DNA of 38,180 bases from Chitinophagaceae bacterium (lineage in GTDB: Bacteria > Bacteroidota > Bacteroidia > Chitinophagales > Chitinophagaceae). The notes below the pieces were generated by a model. That model ran no database searches. It saw only the letters and a program-made list of their open reading frames with translations, and was not told the DNA's origin. The position numbers were made by a program, and so were the translations under genes. Location: the NCBI GenBank assembly GCA_947447825.1, contig CANFLL010000037.1, forward strand, positions 1-38,180, in the 5' to 3' direction. This document shows, in pieces, positions 6,970 to 38,180 of this stretch. Within the stretch, counting starts at the first letter, position 1. The number at the start of each line of letters is the position of its first letter.

Positions 6970-7362
6970 CTACGGCACTGGAATTATCTCAGCCAATAGT
7001 TCATTGCCTGCTTTATCAAAATAGGTGCAGGTCATCTTTTCCATATTTACTTCCCACTTTTCTATGCCCGATTTGGCGCAGTCGCTACAAAAGGTGGGGT
7101 AATTTGTTTTGCCTTGTTGATGGGCTTTTAGGTCAGCTTCAAACTGAACTTTATCACTTGTATCAACTACATATAGACTTTCATATTTACTACCCGAAGA
7201 CACTTTGAAATCATTCTCTCCATAGTAATCAACATTCCCATCTGCTACAAAAGCCTTATAACGTAATACGCCTAGTTCTTTAATTTCTTGTATGTAACTA
7301 GGGAAATCGGCACCACTCTTCACCTTTGAATGTGCCGCCTTAATCTGTTCAATTGTAAACAT
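6970..7362 (-). CDS. DUF1398 family protein
   Basis: This is a small soluble protein of 130 residues if started at MFTIEQIKAAHSKVKSGADF (ATG at 7362); an in-frame ATG ten codons upstream (7392) is less likely, because the family normally begins at this point. The pattern GVLRYKAFVADG...YYGENDF and the C-terminal CSDCAKSGIEKWEVNMEKMTC region match DUF1398 (YbcV-like). The biochemical role of the family is not known. C-x2-C in the last third could bind a metal, but nothing more in the sequence supports it. The gene lies 54 bp downstream of the ABC-F gene on the same strand and could be co-transcribed with it. A strong hairpin follows. Confidence 0.85.
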   Translation of the reverse strand: MFTIEQIKAAHSKVKSGADFPSYIQEIKELGVLRYKAFVADGNVDYYGENDFKVSSGSKYESLYVVDTSDKVQFEADLKAHQQGKTNYPTFCSDCAKSGIEKWEVNMEKMTCTYFDKAGNELLAEIIPVP

Positions 7363-7416
7363 AAAGGTGTTTTTTATATGTCTAACCACCAATAACTAAT
7401 CACTAACAACTAAACT

Positions 7417-9419: not shown

Positions 9420-9475
9420 AGAAAGTCATTGGTAGTAAGTCGTAAGTTAAAAGTCGAAAGTCAATAGGCATTAGT
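9420..9475. repeat. Degenerate intergenic micro-repeat (AAGTCnnTAAGT type)
   Basis: Short imperfect copies of AAGTC(G)/TAAGT follow each other (AAAGTCATT, GTAAGTCGTAAGTT, AAAAGTCGAAAGTC). Similar low-complexity strings sit in other intergenic spacers of this window (6901-6955, 7385-7411, 22815-22850, 32871-32905). They carry no coding frame. Confidence 0.5.
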
Positions 9476-9569
9476 TCCAAGTGGGAAAACTTGGTAAAAA
9501 TGCATACCTAATCATTGCTGCTGCATCAATTATTAGTCCCAATATTGGTACTAGTACCTCCATCTGGCT

Positions 9570-9863
9570 GGTGTAATTTGATTTAGTAATAGTATTATTC
9601 GGCTTCGTAATGGTATAACTCCACTTCATAAAGGTGTAACTCGTCATTGTAACACAATAACTCCTCTTTGAAGAGGTATAAATTGACTTCGCACTTGTGT
9701 AAATCCTCATAGCACAGGTATAGTTTAACATAGCACTTGAGTAAATTAACATAGCACTTGAATAAATCCATTTAGCACTCGTGTAAATCCACTTTACACA
9801 GGTATAAATCGTAATAGCAGAAGTGTAAATTGATAAAGCTTTACTATTATTAGGCAAAGATCT
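9570..9863. repeat. Degenerate 21-bp tandem array, 13 units plus one weak unit
   Basis: Thirteen consecutive 21-bp units start at 9570, 9591, 9612 and so on to 9822, with a weak fourteenth at 9843. The approximate consensus on the plus strand is GGTRTAAATYNACTTAGCAC followed by T or A. Spacing is exact although the units differ at many positions. The array lies between the divergent ABC-F and beta-helix protein genes. Because 21 is a multiple of 3, one frame on each strand stays open; the minus-strand frame 9471-9899 reads as a repeated IYTSAKW heptad. I regard that ORF as a by-product of the repeat, not a gene. Confidence 0.8.
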
Positions 9864-10193
9864 TGGGTTGATAGAAATAGCACAGGTTAAAACGCTCATT
9901 GTTTGAGGTAAAAAAGTAGTTTAAAAACGCTATTATCAACGATAGGAGATGAAAAACCCTCAAAAAGCAATCTAGAAAATTATTATAGTGCCAATTTTCT
10001 TCATCGAAAAGTGGCAGATAAGCCGTTGTGGTTTCTTTATCATTAATTTATTTTACCCAATAAACATTTTGCATTAAACAATACACCATCTTTGGAATGA
10101 ATTAAATTAATAAATTAATCTACTAGAAAAATAGTTGAAAGAAAAAAACTATCATATTTGTAAATCAACAGTCCCATATCACTTAAAAGAATT
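9864..10193. other. Intergenic leader region of the beta-helix protein gene
   Basis: This is 330 bp of AT-rich DNA with no gene seen. A possible -7 element CATATTTG (10153-10160; first base off the TAnnTTTG pattern) lies 33 bp before the ATG at 10194. No good -33 TTTG stands at the usual distance, so the promoter is tentative. Confidence 0.35.
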
Positions 10194-26456: not shown

Positions 26457-26756
26457 GATTTTAAGTTTTAAGATGAAAGTTAAGCGTACAAGGTAGGTAG
26501 GTTTTATATTTCCGATCCTATATATACCACAATCAAACTGAACATAAATCTCCTTAGTGATGATATAACTTAATTAGATAACGGTATCAATGAAGTTTTC
26601 GGGGCGAATTAATGATTGTGTAGCCATAAGTTGCAGTTTATTTTATTACAATAACGAATGAATACTGCTTGCAAACAGCTATTTGCATTCAGTTTTTAGA
26701 TAATGGATGATAAACTACAAAATAATTTACGCGCTAAATATTTGTGGATACAGATA
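26457..26756. other. Non-coding stretch between repeat elements
   Basis: About 300 bp of AT-rich DNA with no ORF or RNA gene recognised. A weak stem (TGAATACTGC against GCATTCA, then TTTTT) near 26656-26700 is the only structure seen. Confidence 0.35.
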
Positions 26757-27020
26757 TATAATATGGTTTGCCCACCTTGTAACGCAACAAGCCATTCAAA
26801 CCACGTGGTTTGATGGCATCGTAACGCAACAAAGGGTACAAACCATGTAGTTAAGCTACCTCGTAACAAACCTATACGCCTTAACTACGTGGTTAATACA
26901 CCTCGTAACGGAACAATACACCTAAACCACGTGGTTAAACCTAGTAAGAACGCAACAAGGTACCTTAACCACGTGGTTTGTATGGCTTGTTGCGTTACGA
27001 CTAGGCTCAACCACTTACTT
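26757..27020. repeat. Phased 42-bp array of CACGTG-centred palindromes alternating with CGTAACGCAACAA boxes
   Basis: The palindrome AACCACGTGGTT and variants start at 26799, 26841, 26883, 26925 and 26967, exactly 42 bp apart. Degenerate half-sites sit at the two positions where the period predicts more copies (26757 and 27009). Between them, boxes of the TCGTAACGCAACAA type start at 26777, 26819, 26861 (diverged), 26903 and about 26945. A sixth at 26987-27000 is the reverse complement, TTGTTGCGTTACGA. Box and palindrome centres are 21 bp apart, two helical turns. Spacers between them vary in sequence but not length. The array lies between the LytS kinase and the FG-GAP/IPT surface protein, upstream of both. 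An ORF running through it (26889-27089) is not considered real. Confidence 0.85.
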
Positions 27021-27365
27021 TATGGTTATCCGCAAATATTTATGCCATTAATTGTATTGCTTCTATCCACTGTTAAAATCATTACCTAGTTCGGGCAAGT
27101 GCTTCATACCACTGTAGGTTTATGTATTGGTTTAAAGCAAGTGTTTTTATAGCAAAGAGAATTAGGTAGCGGACGATTGTAGTTGTTTTGTATGGGTAGT
27201 ATTATCTGAATCAGGATTAATGGGATTAAAGGATGTGTAGGAATGGTAGGGTATTAAATTGTTCTAGTCTTTTTAACCTACAAATCCTAATTCAGACAAC
27301 TTTATCTATCAATAATTAGTAATATTGCAAAAATAATTCATTTCTGAACCGTTCAATTATCATTT
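27021..27365. other. Leader region of the FG-GAP/IPT protein gene
   Basis: This 345-bp non-coding region holds the inverted-repeat element at 27205-27296. A poor -7 candidate (TAATATTG, about 27320-27327) lies some 40 bp before the ATG at 27366. No clear Shine-Dalgarno sequence is present. Confidence 0.4.
27205..27296. repeat. Inverted-repeat element with TCTGAATCAGGATT arms
   Basis: TCTGAATCAGGATT (27205-27218) and AATCCTAATTCAGA (27283-27296) pair at 13 of 14 positions. An inner pair TGTAGG/CCTACA (27236-27241, 27277-27282) continues the dyad. Within the left half GGATTAATGGGATTAAAGGA is a series of GGATTAA-like repeats. It resembles the palindromic repeats often scattered between Bacteroidota genes and ends 69 bp before the surface-protein start. 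Confidence 0.6.
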
Positions 27366-30300
27366 ATGAGACTTTTAAGATTAAAATATTTAGTAGTCAT
27401 TCTTATACAACTTCTTTTATCAAAAATTAATGCACAAACACCATCTATCACATCCGTTAAGCCAACAAGTGGACCAATAGGAACAAGGGTAACAATTAAA
27501 GGAACAAATTTTAGTGCCATCAGTAGCAACAATACTGTTTACTTTGGAGCTGTAAAAGCAAAGATTGTTTCAGGAAGTGACACATCATTAATTGTGTCTT
27601 CACCATCGGGAGCAACTTGCCAACCCATTTCAGTGACAGCTAATGGATTAACTGCCTATTCTTCTACACCGTTTATAACAACCTTCGACGGTGCTGCTGG
27701 TCAAAAAATCTCTGCAGCTGTTTTCAATAGAAAAATAGATTTCTCTGGTTCTAATCATTCCCATGAAGCAATTGCTGATATAGATGGAGATGGAAAACCT
27801 GATATTATTTCGACTTCGGGAGGCATCTCGATATATAGAAATATGGGAACAGATGGCATTATTGATACAAATACGTTTAAAACCCATATTGACTCAACAA
27901 TAGATGGCACCAATCCCCAATTACCACTTATATCCGATATTGATGGGGATGGCAAACTTGATATTCTAGTAACTTATTATGATGGTATTGCCATTTTTAA
28001 AAACACATCTAGTGTTGGTAATATTTCATTTGCACCAAAAAAGGTTATCATTATGCCTCAAGACCCATCTACATCGGCAGTTGCTGATATAGATGGGGAT
28101 GGGAAACCAGATATCATTGTAGCAAGTTATTATTGGAAAAATAAAACTAACTACATGTCAATTTTCAGAAACACCTCTACTGTTGGAAATGTTTCTTTTG
28201 ATACTGCTGTTAACTTTTTTTATCCATCTTTACCAGGCCGTGATGGAAATTTTAATTTGGCTATTGCAGATATTGATGGTGATGGAAAGTTAGATATAGC
28301 CTTAAATGCTTTTGATTCTATTAATTTCTATAAAAACGTTTCTACTTCTGGAAGCATTACCAATTCATCTCTAAGTAAGAGATTGGGAATTCGTTACAAT
28401 TTTGCAGGGTCTTTATCTTTTAATGATTTAGATGGTGATGGCAAAGCTGAAATGATAGCAACTAGTTGTTGTGGTATTTCTACCATCTTAATTTATAAAA
28501 ACCAAGCTGTTTTAGGTGAAATTACTGATTCATCTTTTGCCAGTCCAGTGTCATTTAAATATCCCCCTGCTATTACTTACTCTTTATCTAACATACCCAT
28601 AAGTGATATAGATGGTGATGGCAAACCAGATATAGTATTTAGTGCAGATACCAGTAGAATTGTGATTTTACAGAATACCACTACAAAGGGGGTGATAGAT
28701 AATACATCATTTGCTTCTGTAACCAATATTAAAATGGTTTATGGTACTGGTAGCTTGGCAGTAGGAGATTTAGATGCCGATGGCAAACCTGAAATAGTAT
28801 TTTCAGATGGTGGGGCAATAGCAATTATTAAGAATATTATTAAACCGAGATTACAGCCAGTAATTACTTCTTTTAGCCCAACCAAAGCAAAAGCTGGTGG
28901 TATTGTAATAATTCATGGAAACTCTTTTACAGATGCGACATCTGTAAGTTTTGGTGGCACTTTAGCGAATAGTTTCAAAATTTTAGATGACAGTACAATA
29001 ATTGCAATTGTAGGCAATGGTTCGAGTGGTAGTATAAAAGTTTCTACAATTGATAGGTCTGATAGTTTTGGTAGTTTTATTTTTCAATTGCCCACCAAAC
29101 CAACAATTACTTCTTTCTCACCTCAATCAGGAAAGGCTGGCACTAAGGTCACCATTTACGGAAGTTCATTTGCAGGAGCATCAGCAGTAAGCTTTGGAGG
29201 AATAAACGCAAGTAGTTTTAGTGTAATAGGTGACAGTGTTATTATTGCAGTGGTAGATAGTGGTGCAAGTGGTAGTGTTAGTGTTACAACTATATCTGGA
29301 ATAGATAGTTTAGGTGGTTTTATATTCACCTTACCTCCAAGACCTACTATCACCTCCTTTACACCCATCACTGCAACAATTGGCACAAAAGTTACCATAC
29401 AGGGTAGTTACTTTACAAATGCAACATCCGTGAGTTTTGGTGGCACTGCTGCCAAAAGTTTTACATTACTAAATGATAGTACCATTACTGCAATAGTAGG
29501 TAGTGGTGCAAGTGGTAGTGTTAGTGTTACAACGATATCTGGAGTGGATAGCTTAAGTGGATTTATATTTCACTTGCCTCCAAAACCTACTATCATTTCT
29601 TTTTCGCCCACAACTGCAACTATTGGCACATTAGATACAATTCGTGGTAACGCATTTAAAAAAGCTATCTCTGTAAGTTTTGGTGGCATAGCCGCCAAGA
29701 GCTTTAAAATATTAAATGATAGCACTATTACTGCCATAGTAGATAGTTGCACAAGTGGTAGTGTTAGTGTAGCAAATGCGTATGGTGTAGATAGCTTGGG
29801 TGGGTTTACTTACGTTTATGTACCTTTTGTTTATATACCTGATGCTAATTTTAAGGCTTGGGTATTGGCAAAAGTACCACACCAAACAAGTACTATTGGT
29901 ATCACCTATGCTGAAGCAGCAGCATGTAAAATAAAAATAAATATTGGATCACGAAAAATTACAAACCTAGTGGGGATAGAGGCATTTACAAGCATTGATT
30001 CCTTGTTTTGCGCACAAAACAACCTAACGAATTTTGATGTTTCTAAAAACACAGCACTTAGATATTTGAATTGCTCTATCAATGCGATAACGGGTGTGGA
30101 TGTTTCTAAAAACACAGCACTTATTTATTTAAATTGCTCTACAAATAAGTTGACGAGTGTGGATGTAACTAAAAATGCAGCACTCGTTTATTTGCATTGT
30201 GATGGAAATAGTTTAACAAGTGTGGATGTATCGAATAATCGAGCACTTTCTTATTTGTATTGTGAAAAAAATAAAATAACAAGTGTAGATGTAACAAAGA

Positions 30301-31079
30301 ATTTGGCACTTACTCGTTTAGAGTGTTATACTAATAGAATAACAAGTTTAGACGTATCAAACAATCCACTTCTTTGGATTCTTAGATGCAATGAAAACTA
30401 CTTGCCTTATTTGGATGTATCAAAAAATACAGCACTTATTGATATGGAGTGTGGTACCAACCCATTAACTTGTATACAAGTAGCAGACACTAACTATGCA
30501 AAAGCAACCTTCCATAAAGATTCTACTGCCAGGTTTAGCACTAATTGCGGCAATTTGCCCGTTACCCTATTATCGTTTGAAGCAAATACGCTAAACAACA
30601 AGATATCATTAAAATGGTCTTCAGTCACCGAGCTAAACACTAGCTACTTTATCATACAAAAAAGTACTGATGGTAGTTCCTTTACAGATAAAGGCACAGT
30701 AAACGCAATAGGAATTGGGGCAAATAGTTATAGTTTTACAGATGCAACACCAACTCCTGGAATTAACTATTACCGTTTAAAGATGATAGATAAAGATGGA
30801 AGTTTTAGTTACAGCAAGGTGGTATCTGTTCAATTGATAATTGATAATTATCAATTATCAATTACTCCTAATCCAGCTAAGGATAAAGTTAATGTGAAGG
30901 GTAATCATATAGTTTCTGTTAAGGTTATTGATAATTTGGGTAGGGTGCTAAGGAATATTTCTTTTAGGGATGCATGTAACCCTGTATTAACTTTAACTGG
31001 AATTCCTACTGGATTCTATCATTTACATGTGCAAACTACTGATGGAAAGGTGAGTGGAGTGGGGCTTGTGATTGATTGA
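27366..31079 (+). CDS. Secreted FG-GAP/IPT/leucine-rich-repeat protein with type A T9SS sorting domain
   Basis: The protein has 1237 residues. After a signal peptide (MRLLRLKYLVVILIQLLLSK) come, in order: one IPT/TIG domain (about 28-110); seven FG-GAP/VCBS calcium-binding repeats of the DIDGDGKPDI type (about 133-495), expected to form a propeller; four IPT domains (about 498-815); about eight leucine-rich-like repeats of 21 residues (TSVDVSKNTALIYLNCSTNK; about 861-1038); an Fn3-like domain (about 1063-1158); and a type A T9SS C-terminal domain (ITPNPAKDKVNV ... GFYHLHVQT). It is exported and probably anchored at the cell surface. The acidic DxDGDG loops imply calcium binding; the ligand is unknown. 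IPT repeats 3 and 4 share near-identical DNA. A good terminator follows. Confidence 0.92.
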   Translation: MRLLRLKYLVVILIQLLLSKINAQTPSITSVKPTSGPIGTRVTIKGTNFSAISSNNTVYFGAVKAKIVSGSDTSLIVSSPSGATCQPISVTANGLTAYSSTPFITTFDGAAGQKISAAVFNRKIDFSGSNHSHEAIADIDGDGKPDIISTSGGISIYRNMGTDGIIDTNTFKTHIDSTIDGTNPQLPLISDIDGDGKLDILVTYYDGIAIFKNTSSVGNISFAPKKVIIMPQDPSTSAVADIDGDGKPDIIVASYYWKNKTNYMSIFRNTSTVGNVSFDTAVNFFYPSLPGRDGNFNLAIADIDGDGKLDIALNAFDSINFYKNVSTSGSITNSSLSKRLGIRYNFAGSLSFNDLDGDGKAEMIATSCCGISTILIYKNQAVLGEITDSSFASPVSFKYPPAITYSLSNIPISDIDGDGKPDIVFSADTSRIVILQNTTTKGVIDNTSFASVTNIKMVYGTGSLAVGDLDADGKPEIVFSDGGAIAIIKNIIKPRLQPVITSFSPTKAKAGGIVIIHGNSFTDATSVSFGGTLANSFKILDDSTIIAIVGNGSSGSIKVSTIDRSDSFGSFIFQLPTKPTITSFSPQSGKAGTKVTIYGSSFAGASAVSFGGINASSFSVIGDSVIIAVVDSGASGSVSVTTISGIDSLGGFIFTLPPRPTITSFTPITATIGTKVTIQGSYFTNATSVSFGGTAAKSFTLLNDSTITAIVGSGASGSVSVTTISGVDSLSGFIFHLPPKPTIISFSPTTATIGTLDTIRGNAFKKAISVSFGGIAAKSFKILNDSTITAIVDSCTSGSVSVANAYGVDSLGGFTYVYVPFVYIPDANFKAWVLAKVPHQTSTIGITYAEAAACKIKINIGSRKITNLVGIEAFTSIDSLFCAQNNLTNFDVSKNTALRYLNCSINAITGVDVSKNTALIYLNCSTNKLTSVDVTKNAALVYLHCDGNSLTSVDVSNNRALSYLYCEKNKITSVDVTKNLALTRLECYTNRITSLDVSNNPLLWILRCNENYLPYLDVSKNTALIDMECGTNPLTCIQVADTNYAKATFHKDSTARFSTNCGNLPVTLLSFEANTLNNKISLKWSSVTELNTSYFIIQKSTDGSSFTDKGTVNAIGIGANSYSFTDATPTPGINYYRLKMIDKDGSFSYSKVVSVQLIIDNYQLSITPNPAKDKVNVKGNHIVSVKVIDNLGRVLRNISFRDACNPVLTLTGIPTGFYHLHVQTTDGKVSGVGLVID
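30832..30863. repeat. Perfect 32-bp palindrome inside the coding sequence, before the T9SS domain
   Basis: The stretch is its own reverse complement over 32 bp and consists of AATTGATAATTGATAA and its mirror. It encodes the linker QLIIDNYQLSI between the Fn3-like and sorting domains. Related AATTGATAATT/AATTGACAATT strings occur just after the stop (31070-31092) and at about 33063-33082. Confidence 0.8.
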
Positions 31080-35935: not shown

Positions 35936-37681
35936 TTAGCGGTATATTTCCACCAACTCTAGTTTCTTTATCCTAGCTTCAATGGCACCAATTGTTCTGC
36001 CCATACGCTTGGCAATTTCCTCATTTGGCATATATTCACAAAACAATTCAGTCAGTTCTTCATCAAGCTTTTTATTCCAGGGTTTATAGGCTTCTTTATG
36101 CAACACCCTTTTTTCAGCCATACTGTAAACCTTTCCCAATTCATACATATCCTTTTTGCCAGAAGGCTGTTCCTCTTTAGGCTTCACTTTTCTGATATGA
36201 ATTTCTGGGGAAGGAGGAAAATCTATTGGTACTAGGGTTGATGGAATATGAATAATATTCTTCGTTCTAGTAACAGCTACATACAGCAGGTTTATCTCTT
36301 CATTTAATCTTGCTGCATTAAAATCTTCCTTCTTAACTGCATCTTCTAGTTTCTCTTCGGTTATAAAATCATCCACTATTTCAATGGCATCATATTCCAT
36401 CCCTTTGCTGCGATGAACGGTAGAAAATATTATATCTGCCATATCTTTTTCCCCATCAGCGACATGTCTTTCCTTTAGTGTTTTTATTTTTCCTTGTATA
36501 TCATTGCCAAATTCCTTCACAATTTCCACCATTATTCCCAACTGAGCATCTTCTGTTTTTTCTATATAATCTTCCAGCTCTTTAAGGTCATTCATTTCTC
36601 GGATGAGTTTATCTTTAATGAGCGGTCTTTTACCATTAAATAGGTACAATACATCATAAAGTGATGCCCCATCATCTGCATAAGTGTACGAATTGATGTT
36701 GCCTTCAAAGTATATCTTAACCGCATTTTTCTCTGTAATATATCTTATGGCTCTTTGCAAAAGTCCTAGGTTGGTTCGTGCTAGTACTGCTTGTGTTTTT
36801 GAGGTTTTGTTAGTTCCTTTGCCAGTAATTATGATGGACTTGCACTCAGCAATATGATTTTTCCATTTCAATACTTCAATCGCCAAATTAGCAATATCTT
36901 GGTTGAAGCGAAAACTAGTTGATAGATAATATTGTGTAAACTGAGCTTTTTCGAGTGAGTTCACCGCAAAACGCCAAGCATAAATTTGCTGATGCGCATC
37001 GCCCACAATTACTTTTATGGCATCTTGGTTTAAAAAAATATCCAGCATGGCAGGGGATGCATCTTGTCCTTCATCGAAGAGGATATAATCGTAATGTAAT
37101 TTGGGATTAGATAATTGAAATTTTTTAAGGTAAAACTCATGGGTAATTTCAATTTCGCCCTTGTCCATTTTGTCTAATAATAGTCTGGTTTGTGTTTCCA
37201 GATACTCATAAAAATTTCGTACAAACACTTTTGCTTTACTATCTGCAACGATGTCGAGGTAACTTAATTCTTGAACTTTTCGTTTATCACTGTTACAGAA
37301 ATAAGCGATAAATTTTTTAATGTGATTGGCGGCAATGTATTCCGCATGTTTTTCTCCACTTCCTACCAAGCCTAATAGTTCGGCAATTTCATGGATCTTA
37401 TATTCGTTTCTTATTTTATAATTAGAACCTTTCACTATTCTATCAAAGGCCAATGAATGAGCAGTATGCACATTAACGTTAGGAATTCCTTTTTCTAGAA
37501 ACTTTCTTTGGGCTTCTACTTTTACTGATTTATTAAAAGCCAAGTATAGAATTTTAGCATTGGAGGGGCGGGTTCTAGCATATTCAATGATGGTAGTTGT
37601 TTTTCCAGAGCCAGCAACAGCATTAATTTTAATGTTTCCTGTTGAGTTAATAATTTCCAATTGCTCTGCTGTGAGTTCCAT
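35936..37681 (-). CDS. UvrD-like superfamily 1 helicase with C-terminal HTH-like extension
   Basis: The protein has 581 residues and is cytoplasmic. SF1A helicase motifs are visible in order: Q motif LTAEQLEII; Walker A AVAGSGKTTT (about 20-29); motif II ILFDEGQDAS (D203 region); motif III VVGDAHQQIYAWR; motif IV-like STSFRFNQDIANLA; motif V VHRSKGMEYDAIEIVDD; and motif VI LLYVAVTRTKNII. It is shorter than UvrD or PcrA (about 700 residues) and lacks long 1B/2B insertions, resembling FBH1-like or phage/plasmid-type UvrD helicases. The last 45 residues (WNKKLDEELTELFCEYMPNE, then EIAKRMGRTIGAIEARIKKL) look like an added helix-turn-helix or Myb-like DNA-binding unit. Role: DNA unwinding or translocation in repair or recombination (family knowledge). 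No partner nuclease gene is adjacent. Confidence 0.9.
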   Translation of the reverse strand: MELTAEQLEIINSTGNIKINAVAGSGKTTTIIEYARTRPSNAKILYLAFNKSVKVEAQRKFLEKGIPNVNVHTAHSLAFDRIVKGSNYKIRNEYKIHEIAELLGLVGSGEKHAEYIAANHIKKFIAYFCNSDKRKVQELSYLDIVADSKAKVFVRNFYEYLETQTRLLLDKMDKGEIEITHEFYLKKFQLSNPKLHYDYILFDEGQDASPAMLDIFLNQDAIKVIVGDAHQQIYAWRFAVNSLEKAQFTQYYLSTSFRFNQDIANLAIEVLKWKNHIAECKSIIITGKGTNKTSKTQAVLARTNLGLLQRAIRYITEKNAVKIYFEGNINSYTYADDGASLYDVLYLFNGKRPLIKDKLIREMNDLKELEDYIEKTEDAQLGIMVEIVKEFGNDIQGKIKTLKERHVADGEKDMADIIFSTVHRSKGMEYDAIEIVDDFITEEKLEDAVKKEDFNAARLNEEINLLYVAVTRTKNIIHIPSTLVPIDFPPSPEIHIRKVKPKEEQPSGKKDMYELGKVYSMAEKRVLHKEAYKPWNKKLDEELTELFCEYMPNEEIAKRMGRTIGAIEARIKKLELVEIYR

Positions 37682-37860
37682 ACTTTATTTCTTTACCTAC
37701 TTCTATTTCTTTTCTTCGGACAATACTTTTGAAATGCTGAACTACCTAAACATATAATTCTACTTCGAAATGGAGTGTGAAAGTAAATATACAAACAATC
37801 AAATTATAATTTATGCTATAAAAAAAAGATTGTAAACATAAAATAAATGGTTAGTAAAAC

Positions 37861-38180
37861 TAAATTCAATCATTAATGATCTCCGCTAGATACCAAGGGT
37901 ATCTAAATTCAATCATTAATGTTCTGCGCCAGATACCAATCGATGTAAATTCAATCATTAATGATCTCCGCTAGATACCAAGGGTATCTAAATTCAATCA
38001 TTAATGTTCTGCGCCAGATACCAACCAATGTAATTTTAATCATTAATGATCTCCGCTGGATATCAAGGGTATCTAAATTCAATCATTAATGTTCTCCGCC
38101 AGATACCAACCAATGTAATTTTAATCATTAATGATCTCCGCTAGATACCAAGGGTATCTAAATTCAATCATTAATGTTCT
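37861..38180. repeat. 85-bp tandem array made of alternating 43- and 42-bp half units, continuing past the edge
   Basis: Half unit A (43 bp) starts at 37861, 37946, 38031 and 38116; half unit B (42 bp) at 37904, 37989, 38074 and 38159 (cut by the edge). Both open with TAAATTCAATCATTAATG or TAATTTTAATCATTAATG. Unit A contains the 12-bp palindrome ATCATTAATGAT and a hairpin TAGATACC-AAG-GGTATCTA (37887-37905 in the first copy). Unit B has GTTCTGCGCC and lacks the closing arm. Copies are nearly identical, so the expansion is recent. It lies about 180 bp upstream of the helicase start; no coding frame is apparent. Confidence 0.85.

Follow-up and report, generated by a model that had tools for sequence, protein, structure and literature searches.

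REP and BIME repeats are intergenic palindromic units with regular spacing and alternating orientation that act as protein binding sites, and REPs usually exceed 100 copies per genome (PMC2817692). Intergenic tandem repeats are also reported for freshwater Planctomycetota (PMC9426551). The arrays described below resemble REP and BIME repeats in having regularly spaced palindromic units in alternating orientation (40 of 70 units of 41/42 bp are self-complementary at p<0.05). They differ in that most gene-linked arrays have a sequence of their own and the feature they have in common is a period of 21n bp; the most dispersed sequence type occupies 17 places and exact AACCACGTGGTT five, not more than 100. 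A REP-associated tyrosine transposase was looked for among the linked proteins, and none of those scanned matched a transposase family.

Iteron arrays of plasmid and phage origins consist of direct repeats spaced by about two turns, next to a gene that encodes their dedicated protein. The present arrays are likewise repeats about two turns apart beside a protein gene, but they are many per genome, many are palindromic, and the unit sequence is not kept between copies of the protein; moreover, the linked protein of about 320 aa had no match among the replication families searched or in the plasmid and phage records. As in minisatellites (VNTRs), the number of tandem units differs between close genomes, although here the period is mostly limited to multiples of about 21 bp and out-of-phase indels are very few. 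Homotypic clusters of transcription-factor sites place repeated dyads in helical register upstream of genes, whereas these arrays have no strong site common to all loci and also lie between convergent genes. Unlike in CRISPR arrays, the whole unit repeats, with no distinct spacers, and no cas gene match was found among the neighbouring proteins scanned. An earlier remark had likened the locus to ParB parS sites on the strength of just the CACGTG core.

The bacterial repeat systems compared are sequence-defined, and the common feature here is a length in helical turns. None of the repeat kinds compared is defined by helical length with free sequence; on a stricter view, the arrays could be classed as a further variety of intergenic tandem repeat or of BIME. 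Within the portions of the open-licence literature searched, no report of intergenic arrays quantised in 21-bp steps was found.

The 42-bp array and its copies

The window, meaning the whole stretch of 38,180 nucleotides that was analysed, comes from a Chitinophagaceae bacterium and contains the features collected in Table 1. The dyads of the main array start at 26799 (AACCACGTGGTT), 26841 (AACCATGTAGTT), 26883 (AACTACGTGGTT), 26925 and 26967 (both AACCACGTGGTT). Three of the five are perfect, the step between them is exactly 42 bp over the span 26799-26978, and half-sites stand at both predicted end positions, a right half (GGTT) at 26757-26768 and a left half (AACCAC) at 27009-27020. The second boxes keep the same 42-bp step; among the first five, the second alone is letter-perfect and the third is degenerate, while the sixth is an exact inverted copy. 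Their centres, computed from coordinates, lie 20.5-21.5 bp from the dyad centres, or half a period away. The letters of the window therefore bear out the preliminary description, which had reported five dyads exactly 42 bp apart with end half-sites and second boxes alternating with them at about 21 bp. It had also noted that the last box is inverted, so that both ends point inward; this symmetry is wider than described, since the entire array is an imperfect inverted repeat (arms 26718-26810 and 26967-27059, 74%) that includes TAAATATTTGTGGATA and TATCCGCAAATATTTA, which flank it. Units are 62-77% identical to the first, so it is the sequence that drifts, and the 42-bp step stays fixed. Circular self-complementarity of the unit consensus is 0.71 against a permutation mean of 0.44, a value that 0 of 300 permutations reached.

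Table 1. Features of the window discussed in the text (positions from the first letter of the window)
Feature	Position	Strand	Remarks
42-bp phased array	26757..27020	.	Five AACCACGTGGTT-type dyads and two half-sites; 80% copy on contig C54
Second boxes, CGTAACGCAACAA type	26778..26999	.	Starts 26778, 26820, 26862, 26904, 26946; sixth inverted, 26987-26999
Left outer inverted element TAAATATTTGTGGATA	26735..26750	+	Inside arm of inverted repeat I1
Right outer inverted element	27027..27042	-	Reads TATCCGCAAATATTTA on +; from inverted-repeat analysis
Leader between lost gene and array	26628..26734	-	Resembles leader of intact ~320-aa genes
5' remnant (~35 codons) of ~320-aa gene	26523..26627	-	60% over residues 1-35, 1 stop
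Spacer, array to start of T9SS-type gene	27021..27378	.	Common to C54 copy
Second non-coding array, 85 = 43+42 bp	37817..38180	.	Contig end; dispersed sequence type
Third array, 21-bp period	9565..9847	.	Scored non-coding by rule; 142-aa ORF 9471-9899 overlaps

All five exact occurrences of AACCACGTGGTT in the 4.65-Mb genome fall within the window array or its copy on contig C54 of the same genome. That copy is 80% identical over 334 bp, the two align over 654 bp without an internal gap, and DNA similarity around it spans window positions 26533 to 27378. Copies with one mismatch outside both arrays are single sites at 10 places. Many unphased copies across the genome, or relatives with length changes that break the 42-bp phase, had been named beforehand as evidence against a phased platform; no such scatter was seen, and no such length change appeared among the comparisons made. 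When 196 genomes were searched for the 42-bp-spaced pair (at most 3 mismatches), two had forward matches, numbering 9 and 10, and 194 had none; the reversed control pattern had no match in either of these two genomes and one in each of three others. The array is on these counts more than a chance pattern. When the 661-bp region was compared with 149 genomes, the source genome included, five had matches. Copies of the window region are present in G004, a genome of the same genus, on contigs C55 (78%) and C22 (71%, array part), and three other genomes had one short weak match each (E 6e-4 to 9e-4).

An intact gene of 320 codons has the array immediately on its 5' side in both C54 and G004:C55, and at the window copy only the first ~35 codons of this gene are left. 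The window array would then be the former 5' platform of a ~320-aa gene that has since been lost there. The G004:C22 copy (L053:7900-8210) has no 320-aa gene and lies between a GNAT acetyltransferase gene and a DUF1398 gene; the DUF1398 gene of the window, at 6970-7392, has no adjoining array.

On the other side of the window array, an inverted repeat of TCTGAATCAGGATTA type at 27202-27299 recurs near T9SS-type genes on C54 and C80. The T9SS-type surface proteins encoded at window 27366-31079 and L038:9090-11378 have genes with a ~80% identical 3' end (471 bp), and no other DNA match within the two genes was seen. The window protein has TIG, FG-GAP and leucine-rich repeats, the L038 protein a CARDB domain and an alpha/beta hydrolase; the pair looks as if the middle had been swapped.

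Linked genes and the class of 21n arrays

Arrays are strongly associated with the 5' side of two uncharacterised protein families, of ~320 and ~207 aa. With the source genome counted, relatives of the 320-aa protein occur in 24 of 196 genomes of the family and order and in 20 of 395 genomes of the class, whereas in a draw of 395 from the phylum the only genome is the source genome itself; many of the genomes with relatives hold several. Together with the two known copies, 40 and 20 further loci were examined, giving 62 loci, of which 61 had at least 250 bp of 5' sequence (L133, with 73 bp upstream, was left out). Loci from related species are non-independent, for which the sequence clusters given below allow. 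In the 900 bp upstream of the gene, with lags of 20 to 70 allowed, 56 of 61 loci have a tandem array, with a period of 41 in 23 and 42 in 33. The same test was positive in 0 of 62 loci inside genes, 3 of 55 far upstream and 2 of 60 downstream. Two of the five misses have a damaged gene (two stops at L097, shortened at L175), L110 has a period-41 array farther upstream, and at L123 and L162 the best lag is 41 or 42 but under the threshold. Repeats within coding sequence were considered and rejected, since a period of 41, seen in 23 of the 56 linked arrays, cannot keep frame.

Searches with the 320-aa protein gave little. There was no Pfam match, 20 members yielding scattered matches at E 0.018 or weaker, and PADLOC gave none. 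One of three members scanned against NCBIfam had a match below the cut-off (E 0.0044, 16 bits against 335), and PHROGs returned one weak match, of function unknown there (E 0.0029). AlphaFold2 models built from two rows reached a mean pLDDT of 49 (39 in the C-terminal part), and Foldseek with the first model found no PDB match at E<=0.001; profile search listed just two designed helix bundles (E 0.08 and 0.33). A phage or plasmid origin was also tried and, within the records searched, rejected: one member had no tblastn match in phage or plasmid records, and three further scans found no relative. The IMG/VR hits L176 and L177 are 38% partial matches, that of L176 falling within a small phage ORF.

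In the ~207-aa family, 16 of 24 readable loci are preceded by arrays of period 21, 42, 63 or 84, and 2 of 24 have arrays downstream; six of 30 loci gave no frame, and L265, L268 and L275 look mis-framed but are counted among the 24. None of three members scanned had a Pfam family at the curated cut-off. The family is multi-copy (for example L181:11278-11901, L182:16802-17422 and L189:3234-3869) and its genes are mostly preceded by 21n arrays.

Arrays of this kind extend well beyond the linked genes. In 430 kb of the source genome (the window and 20 stretches of contigs C3-C8), 34 non-coding arrays were found, and two of them adjoin an intact gene of the 320-aa family. Five genomes with the gene, sampled over 830 kb, contain 50 non-coding arrays, and the periods of 45 of them deviate from a multiple of 21 by no more than 1.5 bp, where 7.1 would be expected if lags were evenly spread (binomial p ~1e-32); arrays with low triplet entropy or a coding classification are excluded from these counts. 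Six genomes without the 320-aa gene yielded two non-coding arrays in 497 kb, both of 21 bp; two of these control samples are small (20 and 48 kb), one consists mainly of short contigs (69 kb), and gene-bearing and gene-free genomes differ in G+C too. Tandem Repeats Finder (TRF), which allows indels, listed 39 non-coding arrays in genomes with the gene, 36 near 21n and 29 free of any indel, and 0 in genomes without it; for coding arrays from the same stretches, the count was 4 of 13. The periods that break the rule are 16, 74 (near seven turns), 82, 87 and 99, with 49 added in the TRF run; before the shortest-period rule was applied, 28 (twice) and 32 were also listed, the last becoming 16 afterwards. 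Two side observations concern tandem repeats: the product of ORF 9471-9899, which overlaps the third array of Table 1, would be a 7-residue repeat of about IYTSAML, and the non-21n repeats L192:14468-16829 and L122:321-545 have periods of 72 and 108 (coding) and 99, and are collagen-like by eye only.

The period is held while the sequence changes freely. The 56 gene-linked arrays and the window array fall into 37 clusters with no detectable mutual similarity, of which 22 have period 42 and 15 period 41. At L111 and L112, in one genome, the genes and leader are 88% identical, yet the arrays belong to different clusters, and similarity ends at about -137, close to the array edge. In a phase walk that started from 106 arrays, moved outward and tolerated a shift of at most 7 bp, 610 units kept the phase and 5 were off by 1 or 2 bp, at a mean divergence from consensus of 15.6%; leaders adjacent to arrays have 24 indels per 336 substitutions (14 pairs), a contrast that is an upper bound because the array search was ungapped and so favours indel-free arrays. 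Length changes come in whole steps. The near-identical loci L127 and L132 are offset by exactly one 42-bp unit, and the array at L187 differs from its G004 orthologue by a net 63 bp, or 3 x 21 (placed by the aligner as 10 + 53), with flanking indels of 1, 2 and 3 bp. The phase walk and the 63-bp difference support the earlier suggestion that constant length with drifting sequence reflects selection for helical phase. At L182:17521, the orthologous array shows no gaps and little change. Upstream of purA, a 21-bp array is present in the source genome and in G004, and the stretch aligns at 84% with equal length. The CAYGTG cores of the two species fall in the same alignment column at six places and 2 bp apart at a seventh, and the source genome has one more core without a G004 counterpart; the arms differ throughout (TCACATGTGA type against AACACGTGAC type).

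Symmetry is the second recurrent feature. By permutation at p<0.05, circular self-complementarity is found in 40 of 70 units of 41/42 bp and in 3 of 24 units of 21 bp (one z was undefined, in a unit without variance). In a circular palindrome, the two axes lie half a period from one another, and this accounts for the two alternating box types in the window array, and a 42-bp array can be read as 21-bp steps in alternating orientation. The half-units of 41/42-bp units are not alike as direct repeats (0.272 against 0.258, p 0.88). Perfect palindromic hexamers, tried as a common feature and rejected, are not enriched overall in unit consensuses (68 against 76.2 expected), although among 106 consensuses AACGTT (8 against 1.5 expected), CACGTG (5 against 0.6) and CTGCAG (5 against 0.6) are. 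A narrow dyad test gave p<0.05 in 19 of 56 arrays. From these two results, the symmetry is long and imperfect. One motif shared across arrays was likewise rejected: a comparison of 102 arrays yielded a weak common motif (z 2.5; none of 40 permutations scored as high), which makes a single sequence-reading protein hard to square with the data.

Some sequence types are dispersed. The 85-bp type, represented in the window by dyads ATCATTAATGAT and AGATACCnnnGGTATCT 5' of a UvrD-like helicase gene (35936-37681), has 27 matches at 17 places on 16 contigs of the source genome, window included. Four of the places lie at base 1 of a contig, and these arrays are probably where the assembly breaks. Most flanks of the ten copies inspected differ, the exceptions being a right flank common to L199 and L200 and a left flank common to L200 and L205. 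The GTTCAACTGAAC / CCGTAAGGGCTTACGG box type is found at seven places in G004 and one in G006. Among the dispersed copies compared, similarity is limited to the array, except for L182/L293, an orthologous pair, and L301/L304, where the best match spans 431 bp and falls outside the array.

Explanations for the fixed period

The arrays obey a period law, keep a rigid phase, have symmetric units in many of the 41/42-bp cases, drift in concert, gain and lose whole units, and are linked to genes. A unit length kept constant under freely changing sequence points to a DNA scaffold selected for helical register and not for one sequence. The explanation to which we give roughly even chances is that the arrays are platforms for cooperative protein binding along one face of the helix and belong to a class built in ~21-bp steps. 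Each step would equal two turns of B-DNA, some arrays having a period of 21 and others of 41-42 with a unit that is often its own reverse complement, which would place a dyad at each half period; higher orders of the step would give 63 and 84. A putative protein, probably dimeric and covering about two turns, would dock side by side with its neighbours on one helix face. Such binding would leave the spacing under selection and the base sequence loosely constrained and replaceable in all units together. A platform of this kind may regulate the gene, shape the nucleoid or do both. The regulator platform proposed at the outset survives in part: the phase selection fits it, but one sequence-specific regulator fails to explain the unrelated arrays at L111 and L112. 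A purely regulatory role is not established by gene arrangement either, since 31 arrays lie between 14 divergent, 12 tandem and 5 convergent gene pairs (3 of the 34 were dropped, a neighbour missing on one side) and the concentration at divergent genes is not significant, whether judged by gap length (p 0.10) or by gap number (p 0.07). Promoter-like sites are scarce in the stretch from array to gene (8 of 56, 3.65 expected).

The main competing explanation is a functionless mutational ruler, in which minisatellites are duplicated in two-turn steps in these lineages and homogenised by unequal crossing-over. We regard it as unlikely but deserving of serious weight. It would account for the 37 clusters among 57 loci, the whole-unit length differences between close loci, the arrays between convergent genes (5 of 31) and an abundance in some genomes with near absence from relatives, and unequal crossing-over copies phase without selection. 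It fits less well with a phase kept at 15.6% mean divergence with very few indels, with the self-complementarity of many 41/42-bp units, which simple slippage does not yield, and with the strong association of arrays with two gene families at the 5' rather than the 3' side.

A dispersing repeat is less probable again. Here, REP- or BIME-like intergenic elements would copy themselves, and their phase would be set by a transposition or recombination enzyme. The spread of the 85-bp type over 17 places on 16 contigs, with some copies sharing flanks, is what such a repeat would give, as are the GTTCAACTGAAC / CCGTAAGGGCTTACGG type at seven G004 places and one in G006, with similarity mostly confined to the array, and the window type at G004:C22 without the 320-aa gene. 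Most gene-linked arrays, however, have no sequence in common, the linked proteins scanned matched no transposase family, the 320-aa protein has no tblastn match in phage or plasmid records, and IMG/VR contains no exact 42-bp pair.

Action as RNA, the array being transcribed into a row of hairpins, is improbable. Arrays do fold better than column-permuted controls (mean z -3.26 and -3.40 on the two strands, below -1.64 in 42 and 39 of 56 arrays), with a slight advantage for the strand antisense to the gene (p 0.004). These good z-scores are nevertheless accompanied by hardly any excess of compensation in paired columns (6.1% of changed cells against 2.6-6.0% with partners slid, in the 27 of 56 arrays with symmetry of 0.6 or more) and by no wobble excess (128 G-T against 152 A-C), on which grounds the hairpin reading was set aside. 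There is also no Rfam match in the window, and hairpins leave the 21n period law unexplained.

Selection for curvature itself, in-phase repeats of any sequence bending the axis, is very improbable. From wedge values, arrays are predicted to curve by 0.52 degrees per bp against 0.37 in coding DNA of equal length (p 0.04), but column-permuted arrays of equal period are predicted to be just as curved (mean z -0.15, p 0.34), and this reading was rejected; three- or five-turn periods (31-32, 52-53) would serve equally and are absent from the non-coding periods listed under the shortest-period rule and by TRF.

Least credible of all is the specific proposal made at the outset, that the array is either a ParB/parS-like site or the operator platform of the LytTR regulator next to it: sites of LytTR regulators lie two turns apart, a LytS-type kinase and a LytTR regulator do adjoin the array, though as a pair only at the window copy, and another gene with a LytTR domain is found ~3.4 kb away from the G004:C22 copy, which leaves the LytTR idea weak but with a small probability, but the five ORFs scanned near the C54 and G004:C55 copies (320-aa genes aside) have no LytTR domain, array neighbours elsewhere are varied, and CACGTG is one of several cores.

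A proposed register-defined scaffold in Bacteroidia

Building on the reading of the arrays as protein platforms, a more specific proposal is offered tentatively, as possible though doubtful: some Bacteroidia may have a sequence-free, register-defined nucleoprotein scaffold, on which a dedicated protein polymerises along one face of the DNA, with the ~320-aa and ~207-aa families, most members of which adjoin such arrays, as candidates for part of the machinery. If so, a genome would carry many intergenic arrays, most with a sequence of their own, that evolve in concert like a eukaryotic satellite but are cut to multiples of two helical turns. Arrays that are protein platforms would be a bacterial counterpart of satellite DNA and would allow a direct test of helical-register selection. 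If a mutational ruler is at work instead, a duplication process that measures two turns of DNA would be new too. The arrays provide a genomic handle on two uncharacterised protein families, and the 21n law makes the question testable under either reading.
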